A stretch of DNA of 64,000 nucleotides. Origin: Amycolatopsis suaedae. GTDB taxonomy: Bacteria > Actinomycetota > Actinomycetes > Mycobacteriales > Pseudonocardiaceae. Where the stretch lies: positions 124,001-188,000 of the forward strand of contig NZ_SFCC01000002.1 of the NCBI RefSeq assembly GCF_004214935.1, in the 5' to 3' direction. The position numbers were made by a program, and so were the translations under genes. Positions 16,354 through 28,902 of the stretch are shown piece by piece. Positions within the stretch are counted from its first letter, which is position 1, and every line of letters begins with the position of its first letter. The notes under the pieces were generated by a model. The model had not been told where the DNA came from and did not search any database. It was given only the letters and a program-made list of their open reading frames with translations.

Positions 16354-17501
16354 CGCCTCGGCCTCCCCTTGGGCACCCGCAGCTCCCATTCGGTACCCGA
16401 TCTCGGTCCGGTGTCCAGGGTGATGGTGCCACCCAATCCGGTCACCCGTCCTCGAATCGACTGGTCCACCCCGAGATGGCCCTGTGCGCGGGCCTGTTCG
16501 AGCCTGCCCTCCGGGATGCCGGGGCCGTCGTCGCGCACGGTGATGACGACCTCGTCGCTCAGGTCCTCCAGCAGCACCCACGCCCTGGCGTCCCGGCCCG
16601 CATGCTTGTCCACATTGGACAAAGCCTCGCGGACGGCCGCGACCAGCTCCGCCGTCGTCGCGGCGGGCAGGTTGACCTCGCCCGCGGGCGCCGAGACCTG
16701 CACCCGGGAGGTCGCCAGCAGTTGCAGAGCACCCCGCAGGTCGGCGGTCTCGCCTGCCGCGGACCCGGCGGGCTCGCTGGTCACCAGCGCACGCAGCGCG
16801 ATCTCCTGTTCGCCTGCCAGCTCGGCAAGCTCCGTCGCCTCGCCACCCAGCTCGGTGCCGCGCTTGCGGACCCTGGCCAGCACCTGCAGGACGTTGTCGT
16901 GGATCGACCGGGCCAGCCGTTCCCGCTCGGCCGTCGCGGCCTCGGCCCGCAGTGCCTGCGCCAGCCGCGCCCCCGACCGCCGGGCGACCGTCGCGGTCAG
17001 GCCCACCAGCAGCCCGCTGATCAGCAGCAGGAACCCGTCGCGGGCCAGGTCGAGGGTGAACTCCTGGCGGGAGAGGCCGGTGGCGATGGCGATGACGGCC
17101 GCGCTGATCACCCCGCCGCTCGCACCGAACCGCATCCCGCCCGCCAGCGGCGCGACGGCCGCCCAGACGGTCGTCACCAGCGGTGCGCCCGCGCTGATCT
17201 GCTCGCGGGTGAGCACCCAGTGGCTGGCCACCACGAGTGCGGCGGTGATCAGCACGTCCGCGTAGACCACGCCACGCCGGCGCCAGCGTGGCCGTTCCCG
17301 CGAGTAGACCAGGCTGGTCGCGATGGTCCAGGCCGTCATGATCCCCAGCACGATCCAGGCCAGCCACTGTCGCCGGTAGTCCTCGTGGTGCACGACGGCG
17401 ACCACCAGCGCGTAGATCAGCGTGACGACCCGCAGCCCGATCGTCGCCCACCACAGCGGGGTGGCGAGATCGCGTGGCGTCGGCCCGAACCGCGTGCTCA
17501 C
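16350..17501 (-). CDS. Sensor histidine kinase, HisKA_3 type (MacS-like)
   Basis: 383 residues from GTG 17501. Membrane segments occupy about residues 20-170 (IGLRVVTLIYALVVAVV; WIVLGIMTAWTIATSLVY; GFLLLISGLLVGLTATV). The dimerisation/phospho-acceptor helix is ERLARSIHDNVLQVLARV with His201; the ATP-binding domain has EALSNVDKHAG (N box) and VRDDGPGIPEGR (G1 box). It pairs with the overlapping response regulator, and its start overlaps the stop of the transporter gene upstream, so three genes form one operon. Confidence 0.9.
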   Translation of the reverse strand: MSTRFGPTPRDLATPLWWATIGLRVVTLIYALVVAVVHHEDYRRQWLAWIVLGIMTAWTIATSLVYSRERPRWRRRGVVYADVLITAALVVASHWVLTREQISAGAPLVTTVWAAVAPLAGGMRFGASGGVISAAVIAIATGLSRQEFTLDLARDGFLLLISGLLVGLTATVARRSGARLAQALRAEAATAERERLARSIHDNVLQVLARVRKRGTELGGEATELAELAGEQEIALRALVTSEPAGSAAGETADLRGALQLLATSRVQVSAPAGEVNLPAATTAELVAAVREALSNVDKHAGRDARAWVLLEDLSDEVVITVRDDGPGIPEGRLEQARAQGHLGVDQSIRGRVTGLGGTITLDTGPRSGTEWELRVPKGRPRR

Positions 17502-18928: not shown

Positions 18929-19840
18929 GTGGCGGAGACGGCGAAGGCTCGGCGGGACGCGGCAAGCGTCGGCCGCTGGGCTGCGCGCGCTCTGCTCGTC
19001 CTCGGCGGCATCGTCGCCGGCTGGCTGCTCGCCGTCGGTTCCGCGTCCGCCAGTGACTCCGGCGAGGCCCCGACCGCCGACCTGACCCCCGTCACCGACG
19101 CCACCGTCGCCGGCCTCGGCGACGTCACCGGCGGCGTGGCCGACCTGTTCGGCACGCTCGGCGGTGTGGTCGTCAAGGCCGACCCGAAGGCCGACCAGGC
19201 CACGGCCCGCGAGGTGGCCGGCAAGGTCCGCGACGGTGCCGAGGACTTCGCCGAGGACGCCCTGCTGAGGCCGGCCCACCGCGCGCTCGGCTCGCTGGAG
19301 CACATCGTCCGCAAGCCGGACGACGCGCCGAAGGTGATCGAGGAAGCGCTCAAGCCCTCGCAGGAGATGCGCGACCTCGGCGAGAAGGTGTGGAAGCTGT
19401 TCCACCCCGAGGTTCCGGATCTTCCGGCCCTGCCGGTGATCCAGCACCCGATCGGCGGCCCGGCCACCGACGTCGTGCCCGCGCCGATCACCCTGATCTC
19501 CGCAACCGACCCGGTCACCGTCCTGGTGCCGGCGGATGCGGACCGCCTCCCGCCCGTGCACAACGGCTGGAGCGGTGATGGTGGAACCGACGACTCGGAC
19601 GGTTCCACGGACGGCAACGAACTGCCTGCCGTCCCCGTGCGCCTGCCGGTGGCTCCCGGCGGTGCCCCCACCTACCCCGGTGGTGGCTCCGGTGCCGGTG
19701 CTCACCTGGACGGGCTGCTGTTCGGTGTCCCCGCCGGGACGCTGTCCGCTTTCGGTAGCGCGGTGATCGGCTCGGTCCGTACCGGCTCCGGTCACCTGGT
19801 CATGGAGCCGGGCGCGCAGCCCGGCGTCACGCCTGACTGA
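18929..19840 (+). CDS. Secreted/membrane-anchored protein of unknown function
   Basis: 303 residues from GTG 18929, preceded by GGAAAGG. A hydrophobic segment near the N-terminus (ALLVLGGIVAGWLLAVGSAS) ending in ASA suggests a signal peptide or anchor. The body is rich in Ala, Asp and Pro; residues about 40-60 (VTDATVAGLGDVTGGVADLF) resemble the low-complexity segments of cell-surface proteins. The C-terminus is Gly/Pro-rich. No enzyme motif. It is followed 167 bases later by the giant repeat protein and may be its partner. The 240 bases upstream hold no gene and no clear promoter. Confidence 0.7.
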   Translation: MAETAKARRDAASVGRWAARALLVLGGIVAGWLLAVGSASASDSGEAPTADLTPVTDATVAGLGDVTGGVADLFGTLGGVVVKADPKADQATAREVAGKVRDGAEDFAEDALLRPAHRALGSLEHIVRKPDDAPKVIEEALKPSQEMRDLGEKVWKLFHPEVPDLPALPVIQHPIGGPATDVVPAPITLISATDPVTVLVPADADRLPPVHNGWSGDGGTDDSDGSTDGNELPAVPVRLPVAPGGAPTYPGGGSGAGAHLDGLLFGVPAGTLSAFGSAVIGSVRTGSGHLVMEPGAQPGVTPD

Positions 19841-19844
19841 TTCC

Positions 19845-19869
19845 CACGCGGGTTGAGAAAGCCCGCGTG
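19845..19869 (+). terminator. Weak hairpin between the two secreted-protein genes
   Basis: CACGCGGG (19845-19852) and CCCGCGTG (19862-19869) form an 8-bp stem with a 9-base loop 4 bases after the upstream stop codon. There is no U tract. It could reduce read-through into the repeat-protein gene or mark the start of that gene's own leader. Confidence 0.45.
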
Positions 19870-20007
19870 CCCCGCCCGCCGCAATCTTTCGACGGCCGGC
19901 TCTACGCGTGCTTCTTTTCCCGCGTTTCCTCCGCGGTTCGCCATTTCTCGCGCGACCGCACCCCCAAAAGACCCGCAAGGGAACCCAAGGAAAAGGAGAT
20001 CCACCTA

Positions 20008-23000
20008 ATGCAAACCTGGGCGAAGCGCGGCCTTCAGACCGCGCTGGTCACGGGTGGTTTGCTGATGCTGGGTACCGGCATCGCTTCGGCCGACGAGAAG
20101 GTAAACCCCGACTCGCCTGCCGGCCCGCTCGACGTGAACCTCACAGTTCCGCTGCAGATCGACCAGAACGCGCTCGGCCTCCCCGGCAAGCAGGTCAACC
20201 TGCCGGGCGTCGACAAGGAACTGAGCACCAAGCCGGTCACGAGCAAGCTGAAGGGCCTGACCGCCCCGCTGCAGAAGGCCGCCGCTCCCGCTGAGAAGGC
20301 CACCGCTCCCCTCGCCGGTGCCACCAGCAAGGCCACCGGCGCGCTGTCGGGTGTCACGAGCAAGGCCACCGAGCGTGTCGGTGCCAAGCAGGTCACCCCG
20401 CCGAGCCTGGAGTCGAACGGCGACGTCTTCAAGGGCAACAAGGTCGACCTCGACCTGACCGTGCCGATCCAGATCTGCGGCAACGCGATCGGTGTGCTCG
20501 GCGACGCCGCCGTCGAAGGCGACTGCGTCCAGTCGTACTCGAACGACGAGGACACCTCCACCGACGGCAAGAACTCCGGCCTGGCCGGCAACGCCGTGGT
20601 GCTGGACTGGGCGCTGCCCATCCAGATCGCGGGCAACGCGGGCGGTGTGGCAGGCGGTAGCGGCTACACCACCGGTGTGGCCGAGCAGGAAGTCACCGAG
20701 ACCGGCGACATCAAGACCGACGGCACCGGCTCCGGCACCTCCGGCAACGTGGTCGCCGGGCAGTTCGCCACGCCGGTCCAGGTCACCGGCAACGCCGCGT
20801 CGTGGATCCTGGGCAACGCCTACAGCGACTTCGAGGCGGAGACCGAGGCCGAGTCCGGCGGGTCCATCCAGACCAACGGTGACGGTGGCTCGGTCGCGGG
20901 CAACGCGGTCGGCGTGCCGATCGGCCTGCCGGTCAAGTTCAACGGCAACGCTGCCGGTGTGTGGGGTTCGGACGCCGACTCGACCTCGCACTCCGAGGCC
21001 GACGCGACGGCCGGCGGGACCACCCCGGGCCTCAACGGCAACCCGAGCTACATCCAGACCGGCGGCGACAAGTCGTTCCTGTCCGGCAACATCGCGCAGC
21101 CGCAGGGCGCGCTGCTGGCCAACGTGACCGGCAACGCCGGCTCGTGGATCGGCAACGCCACCACCGGCAACGCCCTCGACGGCGGCGAGGCCAGCTCGAC
21201 CACGAGCGAGGTCCAGGCCGGCGGGTTCTCCAGCACCACCGGTGACAAGTCCGGCGGTTCGGGCAACGTCGCCGACCTGCCCATCGCGCTGCCCGCCGAG
21301 GTGTTCGGCGTCGGTGGCACCTACATCGGCAACGCGCACGCGAACGCCGACAGCGAGACGGCCACCGAGGCCGGCGGCGGCACCTACAGCACCGGCAACG
21401 GCTCGGTGCTGGCCGGCAACACGGTCACCGGCCAGGGTGCGCTCGCTCCCGAGGTCTTCGGCATCGGCGGCTCGCACATCGGTAACGCCTCCGGTACCGC
21501 TTCCGAGGACAAGGTCGTCACGGCCGGCGGCTACAACGGCACGCAGGGCAACGACTCCAGTGCCTCGGGCAACCTGGTCCAGGTGCCGCTGGCGGTGCCC
21601 GCCGAGGTGTTCGGCGTCGGCGGGTCGTACATCGGCCAGGGCAAGGGCGCCGCGAGCGAGACCAAGGAGATCACGGCCGGCGGCGGTGGCAACACCGACG
21701 ACGACAACGGCTTCGGCACCTCGAACCTGGTGGCGACCCCGGTGTCGCTGCCGGTCCAGGCCTTCGGCATCGGCGGCTCGCACATCGGGCGCGGCTCCGG
21801 CCAGGCCGTCACCGACACCCAGGTGACCTCGGGTGGCGACGTCAAGGCGACCGGTAAGAAGGCCGGGCTGGCCGGCAACATCGGCTTCGTGCCGGTGGCG
21901 CTGCCGCTGCAGGTGCACGGCGTCGGTGGCTCGTTCATCGGCACCGGGCACGGCGCCAGCGAGAACCTGACCGACGCGGTCGCCGGTGGCGACGCGAAGG
22001 CGACCGGCGAGGACGGTGCCGTCGCGGGCAACATCATCCAGGCGCCGTTCGCCGGTGTGGGTGACATGTTCGGCTCGTCGGCCGGGCTGGCGGCGCTGGT
22101 CGGTGGCCAGACCGCGGTGAACGACGTCGTCGCCGAGGCCGGTGGCGACAGCGAGACCAACGGTGACGGTGGCGGCCTGGCCGGCAACGTCATCAGCGCG
22201 CAGGGTCTGCCCATCGCGCAGGTCTTCGGTGACGCCGTCGCCGCCGCGGCGAAGGCGTCCGGTGCGGCTTCCAACTCGGTCGAGGCGACCTCGGGTGGCG
22301 ACATCACCACCTCGGGCGAGGAGGGTGCCTTCTCCGGCAACATCCTCGACGTCCCGGCCGCCGCGGTCGCGCAGGTGTTCGGCAACAGCGTCGCCGGGCT
22401 GGGCGTGGCCGACGCGGTCGCCGACAACAACACCGTCGGCACCGTGGGTGGCAGCACCGACACCAGCGGCTCGACGAACAGCCTGTCGGGCATCGACGGC
22501 CAGCTGCCGGTGGGCGTCCTCGCGCAGATCTTCGACGTTCCGCTGGAGGTGCTCGGCGTTGCCACGGCCGACGCCACCAACGCGACGGTGATCGACGTGG
22601 CCGGCGACGAGCCGCAGATCAACCTGCCGATCGACGGTTCCGCGATGCCGATCAACGCGCTGCCGAAGATGCCGATGCCGGCTCTGCCGGGCGTGCCCTC
22701 GCCGGGCATGGCCGCGGGCGAGACCGGGCTGCCCGGGCTTCCCGGACTCCCCGGCGCGGGCGAGCTGCCCGTCCCGGGCCTGCCGGGTCTGCCCCAGCTG
22801 CCGGTTCCCGGTGGCGCTCGTTCGGACGTCCCCGGCCTGGACGCGCTGCCCGGCCTGGACGGCCTGCCCGCCTTCCCGGGCGTGCCGACCAACGTCACCG
22901 ACGGCCTCGCCGCTCCGGTTCAGATCTCGAGCCTGAACGGGCTGCCGATGGACGTCACGTCGCTGCCGACGCTGCCCGCCGTTCCGGGTGTGCCGACCGA

Positions 23001-23145
23001 CGTGCCGACCACGGTTCCCGCGCTGGACGCCCCGAGCCTGCTGCCGCAGGCCGACGTCCCCGCGCTGGCCCAGGTGGACTCGGGCCCGCTGTCGCTGTTC
23101 CAGCGGATCCTCGACGGCTTCGCCGGCAAGTTCCGCACCCAGTGA
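20008..23145 (+). CDS. Giant secreted chaplin-like multirepeat protein
   Basis: 1045 residues from ATG 20008, preceded by AAAAGGAGAT (19991-20000). Signal peptide MQTWAKRGLQTALVTGGLLM with cleavage near GIASA-DEK. An Ala/Lys-rich stretch spans residues about 70-135. From about 142 to 868 there are roughly 14 repeats of about 50 residues with the pattern GN-(V/I)-x6-P-(V/I)-(Q/E)-V-x-G-N/V-x5-IG, then acidic/Ser-Thr residues, then GGD-x4-TG. Repeat 1 (VPIQICGNAIGVLGDA) carries the only two Cys of the protein (157 and 173) and looks like a Streptomyces chaplin domain. Residues 869-1045 are Pro/Gly/Leu-rich (LPGLPGLPGAG). No LPXTG sorting signal is present. Role inferred: surface-active amyloid-like or cell-surface structural protein. 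Confidence 0.85.
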   Translation: MQTWAKRGLQTALVTGGLLMLGTGIASADEKVNPDSPAGPLDVNLTVPLQIDQNALGLPGKQVNLPGVDKELSTKPVTSKLKGLTAPLQKAAAPAEKATAPLAGATSKATGALSGVTSKATERVGAKQVTPPSLESNGDVFKGNKVDLDLTVPIQICGNAIGVLGDAAVEGDCVQSYSNDEDTSTDGKNSGLAGNAVVLDWALPIQIAGNAGGVAGGSGYTTGVAEQEVTETGDIKTDGTGSGTSGNVVAGQFATPVQVTGNAASWILGNAYSDFEAETEAESGGSIQTNGDGGSVAGNAVGVPIGLPVKFNGNAAGVWGSDADSTSHSEADATAGGTTPGLNGNPSYIQTGGDKSFLSGNIAQPQGALLANVTGNAGSWIGNATTGNALDGGEASSTTSEVQAGGFSSTTGDKSGGSGNVADLPIALPAEVFGVGGTYIGNAHANADSETATEAGGGTYSTGNGSVLAGNTVTGQGALAPEVFGIGGSHIGNASGTASEDKVVTAGGYNGTQGNDSSASGNLVQVPLAVPAEVFGVGGSYIGQGKGAASETKEITAGGGGNTDDDNGFGTSNLVATPVSLPVQAFGIGGSHIGRGSGQAVTDTQVTSGGDVKATGKKAGLAGNIGFVPVALPLQVHGVGGSFIGTGHGASENLTDAVAGGDAKATGEDGAVAGNIIQAPFAGVGDMFGSSAGLAALVGGQTAVNDVVAEAGGDSETNGDGGGLAGNVISAQGLPIAQVFGDAVAAAAKASGAASNSVEATSGGDITTSGEEGAFSGNILDVPAAAVAQVFGNSVAGLGVADAVADNNTVGTVGGSTDTSGSTNSLSGIDGQLPVGVLAQIFDVPLEVLGVATADATNATVIDVAGDEPQINLPIDGSAMPINALPKMPMPALPGVPSPGMAAGETGLPGLPGLPGAGELPVPGLPGLPQLPVPGGARSDVPGLDALPGLDGLPAFPGVPTNVTDGLAAPVQISSLNGLPMDVTSLPTLPAVPGVPTDVPTTVPALDAPSLLPQADVPALAQVDSGPLSLFQRILDGFAGKFRTQ

Positions 23146-28110: not shown

Positions 28111-28902
28111 CTATCCACCGAGGGTGCTCTGCGCTGCTCGCAGTCGCTCCGTGAGCACCGCGGTGGTCGCCGGGGTGAACACGATCAGCGGCTCCCCCCG
28201 GCCCGCGGTCTCCTCGGTCAGCCAGCGGCCCTCCGAGGTGTCGATGTAGTTCACCGGCTTGTCCACCCGGACCCTGCTGCCGCTGCGGTTGCGCAACGCG
28301 ACGTACAGGCTGCCGCCGCCGAGCCGGGGCAGGTGCAGGACCCGGCGCAGCTCGTCGGCCTCCTGCGAGCCCGCGCTCTGCCTGCCGCTCTGCATTACCG
28401 AGAAGCCCTCGTCCTGGGCGGTGGTCCGACGGTTGCCACCCAGCTCGCTCTTCGGCACCGACAGGGTGTTGCCCTTGCCCGCGGCGAGCCTGGGGATCTG
28501 GCCGATGAACTCGGGCAGCAGCTCGCTCGGGTGCACCGACGCCACCACGACGCCTTCCTGCTTCGTGTTGCGCGCGAGGACGAACCCCTCGGCGCCCGCC
28601 GCGCCCGCCAGCAGGTTGTAGTCCAGCGACTTGCCGTCGTACCCGCCGTTGATCCAGGCGTAGTACTCCAGCTGCGGCCTGGCGATCGCGTCCACGGTGG
28701 CCAGCAGGCCGGGATCCACGCCACGGCGGCCGGCCAGTCCGGCACCGGCCAGCTCCTTGTCGGCCCGCTCGTTCTCCTTGCGCTGCGCGTCCTCGCTCAG
28801 CCACGTCGGCGTGCTGGCGAGGATCTGGTGTGGCTCGCCACCGCGCCTGCGGATGAGGTTGAGCAGGGTGCCGGTGGACATCGTGACCTGCTTGGCCAGC
28901 AC
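28111..28902 (-). CDS. ESX secretion-associated protein EspG family
   Basis: 263 residues from GTG 28902. Matches the EspG-like family of Pseudonocardiaceae: LARPQLEYYAWINGG-type segment (IARPQLEYYAWINGGYDGKS), AEGFVLARNTKQEGVVVAS, and C-terminal RWLTEETAGRGEPLIVFTPA. EspG proteins are cytoplasmic chaperones that bind PE/PPE substrates and keep them soluble for type VII secretion. It sits 44 bases after the PPE-like gene, consistent with a substrate-chaperone pair. No ESX core genes (eccB/C/D/E, mycP) are in this window. Confidence 0.85.
   Translation of the reverse strand: MLAKQVTMSTGTLLNLIRRRGGEPHQILASTPTWLSEDAQRKENERADKELAGAGLAGRRGVDPGLLATVDAIARPQLEYYAWINGGYDGKSLDYNLLAGAAGAEGFVLARNTKQEGVVVASVHPSELLPEFIGQIPRLAAGKGNTLSVPKSELGGNRRTTAQDEGFSVMQSGRQSAGSQEADELRRVLHLPRLGGGSLYVALRNRSGSRVRVDKPVNYIDTSEGRWLTEETAGRGEPLIVFTPATTAVLTERLRAAQSTLGG

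Follow-up and report, generated by a model that had tools for sequence, protein, structure and literature searches.

Chaplins and the array of Amycolatopsis suaedae

Streptomyces coelicolor has eight chaplin genes. To our knowledge, the coating of aerial hyphae in non-streptomycete actinomycetes is poorly known. The Pseudonocardiaceae are a large and industrially important family. Here we describe from Amycolatopsis suaedae, a member of this family, a gene for a single chain of about fourteen tandem chaplin-related units, from here on called the array. It lies at 20008..23145 on the + strand of a stretch of 64,000 nucleotides (contig NZ_SFCC01000002.1, positions 124,001 to 188,000), from here on called the window; all coordinates refer to this stretch.

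In the part of the literature available to us the chaplin domain is given two conserved cysteines, with ChpE as the exception, and chaplins are divided into proteins with one domain of ~55 amino acids and proteins with two domains plus a sortase signal (PMC5618241). The short chaplins ChpD-H of Streptomyces (PF03777) share with the array the unit type GN-x-V-x-x-P-V-x-x-P-V-x-V-x-GN, are secreted, and can lack the cysteines (ChpE), as do most array repeats; they have one ~55-amino-acid domain per protein, whereas the array has about fourteen per chain and cysteines in one repeat. The long chaplins ChpA-C have, like the array, more than one unit per chain, but these are two units followed by a C-terminal sortase signal, whereas in the array, with its approximately fourteen units, no sorting signal was seen. 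The array protein is a chaplin by its match to the domain model above the curated cut-off; its units in general do not have the two cysteines of the domain, and with 13 units and a weak 14th it belongs to neither the short nor the long class.

Multi-unit chains are also found in other actinobacterial families. Six such multi-chaplins (L131-L133, L143-L145) have 3 to 10 scored units per chain, and a limit of two or three domains per chaplin, as assumed in an earlier note on this DNA, is therefore not supported. The leaders of L131 and L132 are by eye related to that of the array. Unlike the array, five of the six contain by eye a sorting-like motif (LPVTG, LPYTG, LALTG and twice LASTG; the stretch of L133 is incomplete), and L131-L133 differ from it in having cysteine pairs in several units and, in the flanks fetched, no partner tail of the kind found at array loci (see below). 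The short chaplin-like proteins of array-less Pseudonocardiaceae (alignment A3, in which the aligned frames extend upstream of the likely starts) resemble the array in a weak PF03777 match, one cysteine pair and a signal-like start; they consist of a single unit, have several matches per genome and at E 1e-30 occur in no array genome of a sample of 249.

Relationship of the repeats to chaplins

PF03777 (ChpA-C) is the one family that Pfam reports for the array protein (35.4 bits versus a cut-off of 21, E 9.7e-9); NCBIfam gave no match. At the lax limit of E 1 the model matched 5 stretches of the protein, the best being residues 136-174. A hidden Markov model (HMM) of the repeat was then trained on 184 units of 15 distant orthologs from outside the genus (Lentzea, Saccharothrix, Umezawaea, Actinosynnema, Kutzneria, Labedaea, Actinophytocola, Herbihabitans and one metagenome-assembled genome). 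With the search size set to 1000 it found 13 adjoining domains in residues 143-827 of the window protein (independent E values, i-E, of 2e-16 to 3.5e-6) and a weak 14th in residues 831-868 (i-E 0.025), and it matched none of five shuffles of the mature protein. The borders of the training units derive from our own cut of the window protein, so that agreement of the borders is partly built in, which does not apply to the scores. Judged by these scores, the count of about 14 repeats, already given in the earlier note, is real and beyond chance.

The repeat HMM also matched five of five chaplins, six of six multi-chaplins and one of four short chaplin-like proteins, but none of six proteins that have an array-type leader and no array. 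Likeness to the array family had guided the choice of all six multi-chaplins and of four chaplins out of five, so that only L123, which was found by PF03777, is an independent test of the model. In the reverse search the profile of the orthologs found short frames of 87-250 amino acids in other genomes, and the four that were fetched are chaplins by eye. The commonest residues of the 462 units of exactly 51 residues read G-N-(I/V)-V-Q-(A/V)-P-V-A-L-P-(A/V)-Q-V-F-G-N; the corresponding stretch of the fetched chaplin L146 is GNVIQVPVSVPVQVVGNTIDVVG. By sequence comparison in both search directions the repeats are chaplin-related, which bears out the likeness noticed in the earlier note.

The frame, its start at the ATG at 20008 and its length of 1045 residues had been read correctly in the earlier note, and near-full-length relatives exist in the genus. 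Residues 1-28 (20008..20091), MQTWAKRGLQTALVTGGLLMLGTGIASA, have the make-up of a secretion signal and are near-invariant in 30 genus proteins including the window's own; leader and cleavage site were read by eye, and the protein is probably secreted. A variable linker follows (residues 29-142, 20092..20433). Repeat 1 (residues 143-193, 20434..20586) lies in the region of the best Pfam match and is the sole repeat with a cysteine pair in the window protein. The repeat HMM then gives repeats 2 (194-245, 20587..20742) and 3 (246-297, 20743..20898), repeats 4 (298-359, 20899..21084) and 5 (360-418, 21085..21261) with longer loops, and repeats 6 (419-469, 21262..21414), 7 (470-520, 21415..21567), 8 (521-571, 21568..21720), 9 (572-622, 21721..21873), 10 (623-673, 21874..22026), 11 (674-725, 22027..22182), 12 (726-776, 22183..22335) and 13 (777-826, 22336..22485), and finally the degenerate repeat 14 (827-872, 22486..22623; i-E 0.025). 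The chain ends in a variable tail rich in Pro, Leu and Gly (residues 873-1045, 22624..23142). As the earlier note had said, this long chain has no sorting signal at its C-terminus that we could see, nor was one seen in the relatives; the array of L079 has LPxTG-like strings inside its Pro-rich last 80 residues. Two further features were considered and rejected: a basic N-terminal linker as wall binder (net positive in only 10 of 54 sequences) and a C-terminal amphipathic helix (conspicuous in few).

Conservation of repeat number, length and order

The named array loci were collected by leader peptide patterns (the best 80 of 163). This selection biases leader conservation in the named set and leaves the genus set unaffected. 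Alignment A2 contains the window protein and 53 of 79 named loci; most of the 26 omitted are near-duplicates, and L094, L087 (at a contig end) and L091 (with a short frame) were left out as well. In all 54 sequences the repeat region spans 715-777 amino acids, while the tail ranges from 86 to 369. Repeats 7-12 have 51-52 amino acids with four exceptions among 324 units; repeat 8 has 51 in all 54 sequences, and repeat 10 is doubled to 102 in three. When each repeat of the window protein was compared with the repeats of another array, the best match bore the same repeat number 649 times in 742 comparisons (chance ~1/14); cutting the repeats of the other proteins out through A2 favours same-position matches. 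From the kept unit length and the same-position matches we take the array to be old and not subject to free expansion or contraction. Over 27 pairs, many of which are related, the median ratio of nonsynonymous to synonymous divergence (dN/dS) was 0.40 in the repeats, 0.46 in the linker and 0.64 in the tail. The compared genera share unit number, unit length and unit order, and the repeat region is under purifying selection. The tree of the arrays, a quick tree with long branches, broadly follows the genera; among its named rows, that of Amycolatopsis anabasis is the most nearly identical to the window protein (69% over 725 repeat columns).

These findings bear on two other explanations. The repetitive, Gly/Ala-rich sequence could belong to a repeat protein that has no coat function and is maintained by neutral duplication; same-position orthology, a fixed number and purifying selection across genera speak against this, and we consider it very improbable. 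The array could also fold into a rigid, soluble rod or beta-solenoid whose length is fixed, serving as spacer, adhesin or wall-associated fibre and never forming amyloid. This would agree with the near-constant 51-residue period and unit number, with a repeat region of narrow range next to a tail of wide range, and with the net charge, which is negative in all 54 sequences. However, the units are like those of chaplins, which form amyloid, and a profile search of solved structures (PDB) returned one chance match (E 0.47) and no solenoid. We regard such a rod as possible, if rather unlikely.

Cysteines

The array protein contains two cysteines, C157 and C173 (Met1 counted), both in repeat 1, which agrees with the single pair reported in the earlier note. 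Their spacing is 16, which corrects the earlier note, where the spacing of a Streptomyces chaplin domain had been supposed: by eye, the fetched ordinary chaplins with both cysteines (L123, L148 and domain 1 of L149) have 18, and the multi-chaplin L131 has 14. Among the 756 units of the 54 sequences, 54 have two cysteines and eight have one. Two-cysteine units are confined to repeats 1, 4, 5, 6 and 7 and differ by clade, which does not support the pair of repeat 1 as a defining feature. On the quick tree the pair changed at least 3, 2, 1, 6 and 3 times in these five repeats, counts that are minima given its long branches. Fourteen proteins have no two-cysteine repeat, 26 have one and 14 have two. 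The occurrence in different repeats, and in none of them in 14 of 54 proteins, indicates that the pair is optional; by this pattern in the sequences it is incidental to the array. Chaplins form amyloid fibrils and, as far as the part of the report available to us goes, their cysteines are dispensable for fibril formation in vitro (PMC3079736).

Distribution of the array and of short chaplin-like proteins

In a genome-wide search at E 0.001 the array gene was the only PF03777 match in the 7.54-Mb genome of the host (G000). At E 1 there were nine matches, and those listed all lie inside the array gene; at this limit 4 of the 14 control genomes also gave PF03777 matches. Among 60 related genomes, near-full-length relatives of the array are present in each of the 36 that belong to the genus, the window's included (in G017 in two pieces), and 3 of the 24 others match weakly. 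In 60 genus genomes the PF03777 frames are all at least 955 amino acids long among the matches listed. One genus genome (G012) contains a second, diverged copy of the array (L129), with stop codons counted inside the match.

In a sample of 249 genomes of the family, the profile matched 201 at E 0.001 and found the array in 136 at E 1e-50. Named holders are Amycolatopsis, Prauserella, Saccharomonospora, Thermocrispum, Lentzea, Saccharothrix, Actinosynnema, Umezawaea, Labedaea, Actinophytocola, Kutzneria and Haloechinothrix. In a sample of the phylum 11 of 396 genomes matched, one being the window's own and the other ten having frames of 87-250 or 497-681 amino acids. In a family sample of 120 genomes, the strongest PF03777 match among those listed was a short chaplin (G133, 87-amino-acid frame, 76 bits). 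Plasmids yielded one weak match.

Genera g28, g35, g36, g45, g47, g57, g60, g65 and g68 contain short proteins with one chaplin-like unit and a cysteine pair; PF03777 gave 18.8-22.1 bits on the four that were scanned, with one above the cut-off. This short family (L151, L152, L154-L158) shows the motif P-x-Q-x-CGN...C-(V/T)-NAP and has 2 to 7 matches per genome in 43 strongly matching genomes. When the 249 genomes were sorted at E 1e-30 for the short family and E 1e-50 for the array, thresholds chosen after the tables had been seen, 43 had the strong short family, 136 the array, none both and 70 neither. Genomes without a listed match were counted as lacking the feature, and seven with array-profile E values of 1e-25 to 1e-30 as non-array; a first look scored up to 3 array and 13 short-family candidates per genome. 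Fisher values for these genomes overstate independence because the genomes are related. The window's genome and 16 other sampled genomes of the genus had no short-family match at E 1e-5. Thus, the strong multi-copy short form and the array do not co-occur, and the array is not always alone: replacement of short chaplins by the array is not established because 30 of the 136 array genomes hold short relatives (see below).

The upstream partner gene

Upstream of the array, on the same strand, lies a gene for a protein of 303 amino acids (18929..19840, GTG start assumed) with a signal- or membrane-like N-terminus by eye and no Pfam match near the cut-off. It was found by tblastn in 48 of 79 loci, its body being divergent. 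Its C-terminal tail, PGAQPGVTPD (19808..19837), is of a type, PG-x-Q-PG-(V/I)-(T/N)-PD, that ends the upstream frame in 78 of the 80 loci, 58 times as QPGVTPD and 20 times as a close variant. The stop codon of the partner gene precedes the array gene by 145-241 nucleotides across the loci. In the literature searched no mention of the string QPGVTPD was found.

A strict DNA pattern for the tail gave a single match per genome in 9 genomes of the genus and no match in 4 other genomes. A looser pattern was present in 127 of the 249 family genomes, its reversed control in one. The array was present in 118 of the 127 and absent from nine; a further 18 genomes have the array but not the exact pattern. 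In G138 and some other g41 genomes, array and tail are far apart by coordinates, and adjacency in the 118 is not implied. In all eight array-less loci that were fetched (L174-L181, eight of the nine genomes), the gene after the partner begins with an MQTWAKRG-type leader, and the six of these second genes that were read through (four of them with Pfam) encode a different body and contain no chaplin repeat.

These array-less loci would suit a secreted two-gene system that has the partner tail and the MQTWAKRG-type leader as its hallmarks, with the chaplin repeats as one body among several and with a main role in export or wall biology rather than surface hydrophobicity. That the leader is more conserved than the body points in the same direction. 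On the other side, the array, where present, is kept in number and order and under purifying selection, and we judge such a system to be unlikely as the explanation. If the array has a dedicated helper for export, tethering or assembly, the partner protein is the foremost candidate.

The intergenic region between the two genes also has conserved elements. The sequence CCC-GCAA-GGG (19972..19981, + strand), possibly a tiny hairpin with a GNRA loop, lies 26 nucleotides 5' of the ATG, just before the ribosome site. CCC-GNRA-GGG with the loop GCAA, GAAA or GTAA is present in 52 of the 80 loci, which are mutually related, versus 0.2% of shuffles, and may be a 5' element of the mRNA. Several Lentzea loci without it have by eye a longer inverted repeat at that site. 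In the codons of the leader (20008-20091) the median synonymous divergence (pS) was 0.045 versus 0.165-0.235 elsewhere (27 related pairs; 28 codons only), a hint of constraint on the RNA. Directly after the stop codon of the partner gene there is an inverted repeat, CACGCGGG...CCCGCGTG (19845-19869), and in the upstream alignment many relatives have a conserved box near CGCGGGGTAGC at this place, which may belong to a promoter or a terminator; neither the alignment nor a search with a BldN motif pointed to a sigma factor for the box.

In the flanks of the named loci a DnaB helicase (55 of 79) and a LigB-type dioxygenase (51 of 79) recur, and the genomic place of the array is therefore partly conserved. 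Three further upstream queries (at 17474, 16476 and 13963, + strand) overlie Pfam genes of the opposite strand, and their locus counts were not used. In the window an EspG-family gene (ESX secretion) lies at 28114-28902, near dnaB on the minus strand.

A polymerised chaplin as a proposed hyphal coat

We propose that the array is a polymerised chaplin, one chain of fourteen tandem chaplin-related units that forms a coat on the hyphal or spore surface, a reading to which we give about half of our confidence. It is based on the PF03777 match, the tiling by the repeat HMM, the kept order and number of units, purifying selection and the conserved tail of the partner. The leader would export the array by the general secretion route, and the units would then form beta pairs both within a chain and from one chain to another, by which a single molecule would nucleate and form a piece of the coat. 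Covalent linkage of the units would stand in for the mixing of several short chaplins and for most disulphides. Many weak contacts (avidity) would serve in place of a sortase anchor, despite the nine sortase matches in the genome. The partner would help in export, tethering or assembly. A more specific form of this proposal we find doubtful, namely that Pseudonocardiaceae have a two-gene coat system in which a prefabricated chaplin filament of fixed length (about fourteen units) takes the main coat role that multi-copy short chaplin-like proteins have in sister genera. The partner would then export and nucleate the filament, with the QPGVTPD-type tail as docking or processing signal.

Several findings weigh against a polymerised chaplin in the coat. 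The repeats are acidic, with a negative net charge in every one of the 54 sequences (calculated pI of the mature window protein, 4.05), and their overall hydrophobicity is weak (grand average of hydropathy, GRAVY, 0.03). A hydrophobic-moment test gave no significant sign of the hydrophobic pattern of beta strands (lowest p 0.06). We saw no anchor in the sequence of the array protein. The cysteines of ChpH matter for aerial growth in vivo according to the available parts of two reports (PMC5618241; PMC3079736), yet 14 of 54 arrays are without a two-cysteine repeat. In some sister genera the partner is retained along with a protein that has the leader but no chaplin repeat in its body, and the locus may thus have a function for which the array is not needed. 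Finally, weaker short-family matches (E 1e-5 to 1e-16) occur in at least 30 of the 136 array genomes, where the array is thus not the sole candidate for a coat protein. Most of the matched stretches (L182-L211) look like short, diverged, secreted proteins that contain a CGNN-type unit, one to three per genome; L182, L191, L192 and L201 are plainly chaplin-like by eye, and a stricter motif recovered only one. Many of L182-L211 carry CGNNVGVLGAAVP...NSP...C, possibly a further chaplin-like family. Taking these points together with the evidence above, we still see a role in the hyphal coat as the most likely reading of the sequences.

Significance for the Pseudonocardiaceae

Searches for chaplins together with Amycolatopsis, Pseudonocardia, Saccharopolyspora, Pseudonocardiales, Lentzea and further genera, and for multidomain chaplins, brought up among the matches listed, in the parts available, no paper that we recognised as dealing with such an array protein. 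A survey of 100 genomes reports chaplin-like proteins in several complex genera and, in its available part, names no Pseudonocardiaceae there (PMC4255298). In the accessible text of a genome comparison of Pseudonocardiaceae the terms aerial, hydrophobic, surface protein and secreted gave no match (PMC3469384).

By the sequence comparisons made here, the conserved chaplin array is real and has an unexpected conserved neighbour. The array gene is a clear target for a knockout in Pseudonocardiaceae, and the conserved tail of the partner is a second, directly testable one. If our proposal is correct, the array would be a natural fusion of a functional amyloid into a single chain of fixed length and a model for the effect of unit linkage on nucleation, and it would sidestep some of the redundancy that comes with eight chaplin genes in S. 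coelicolor. In Amycolatopsis and many of its relatives the array may help to coat the hyphae.

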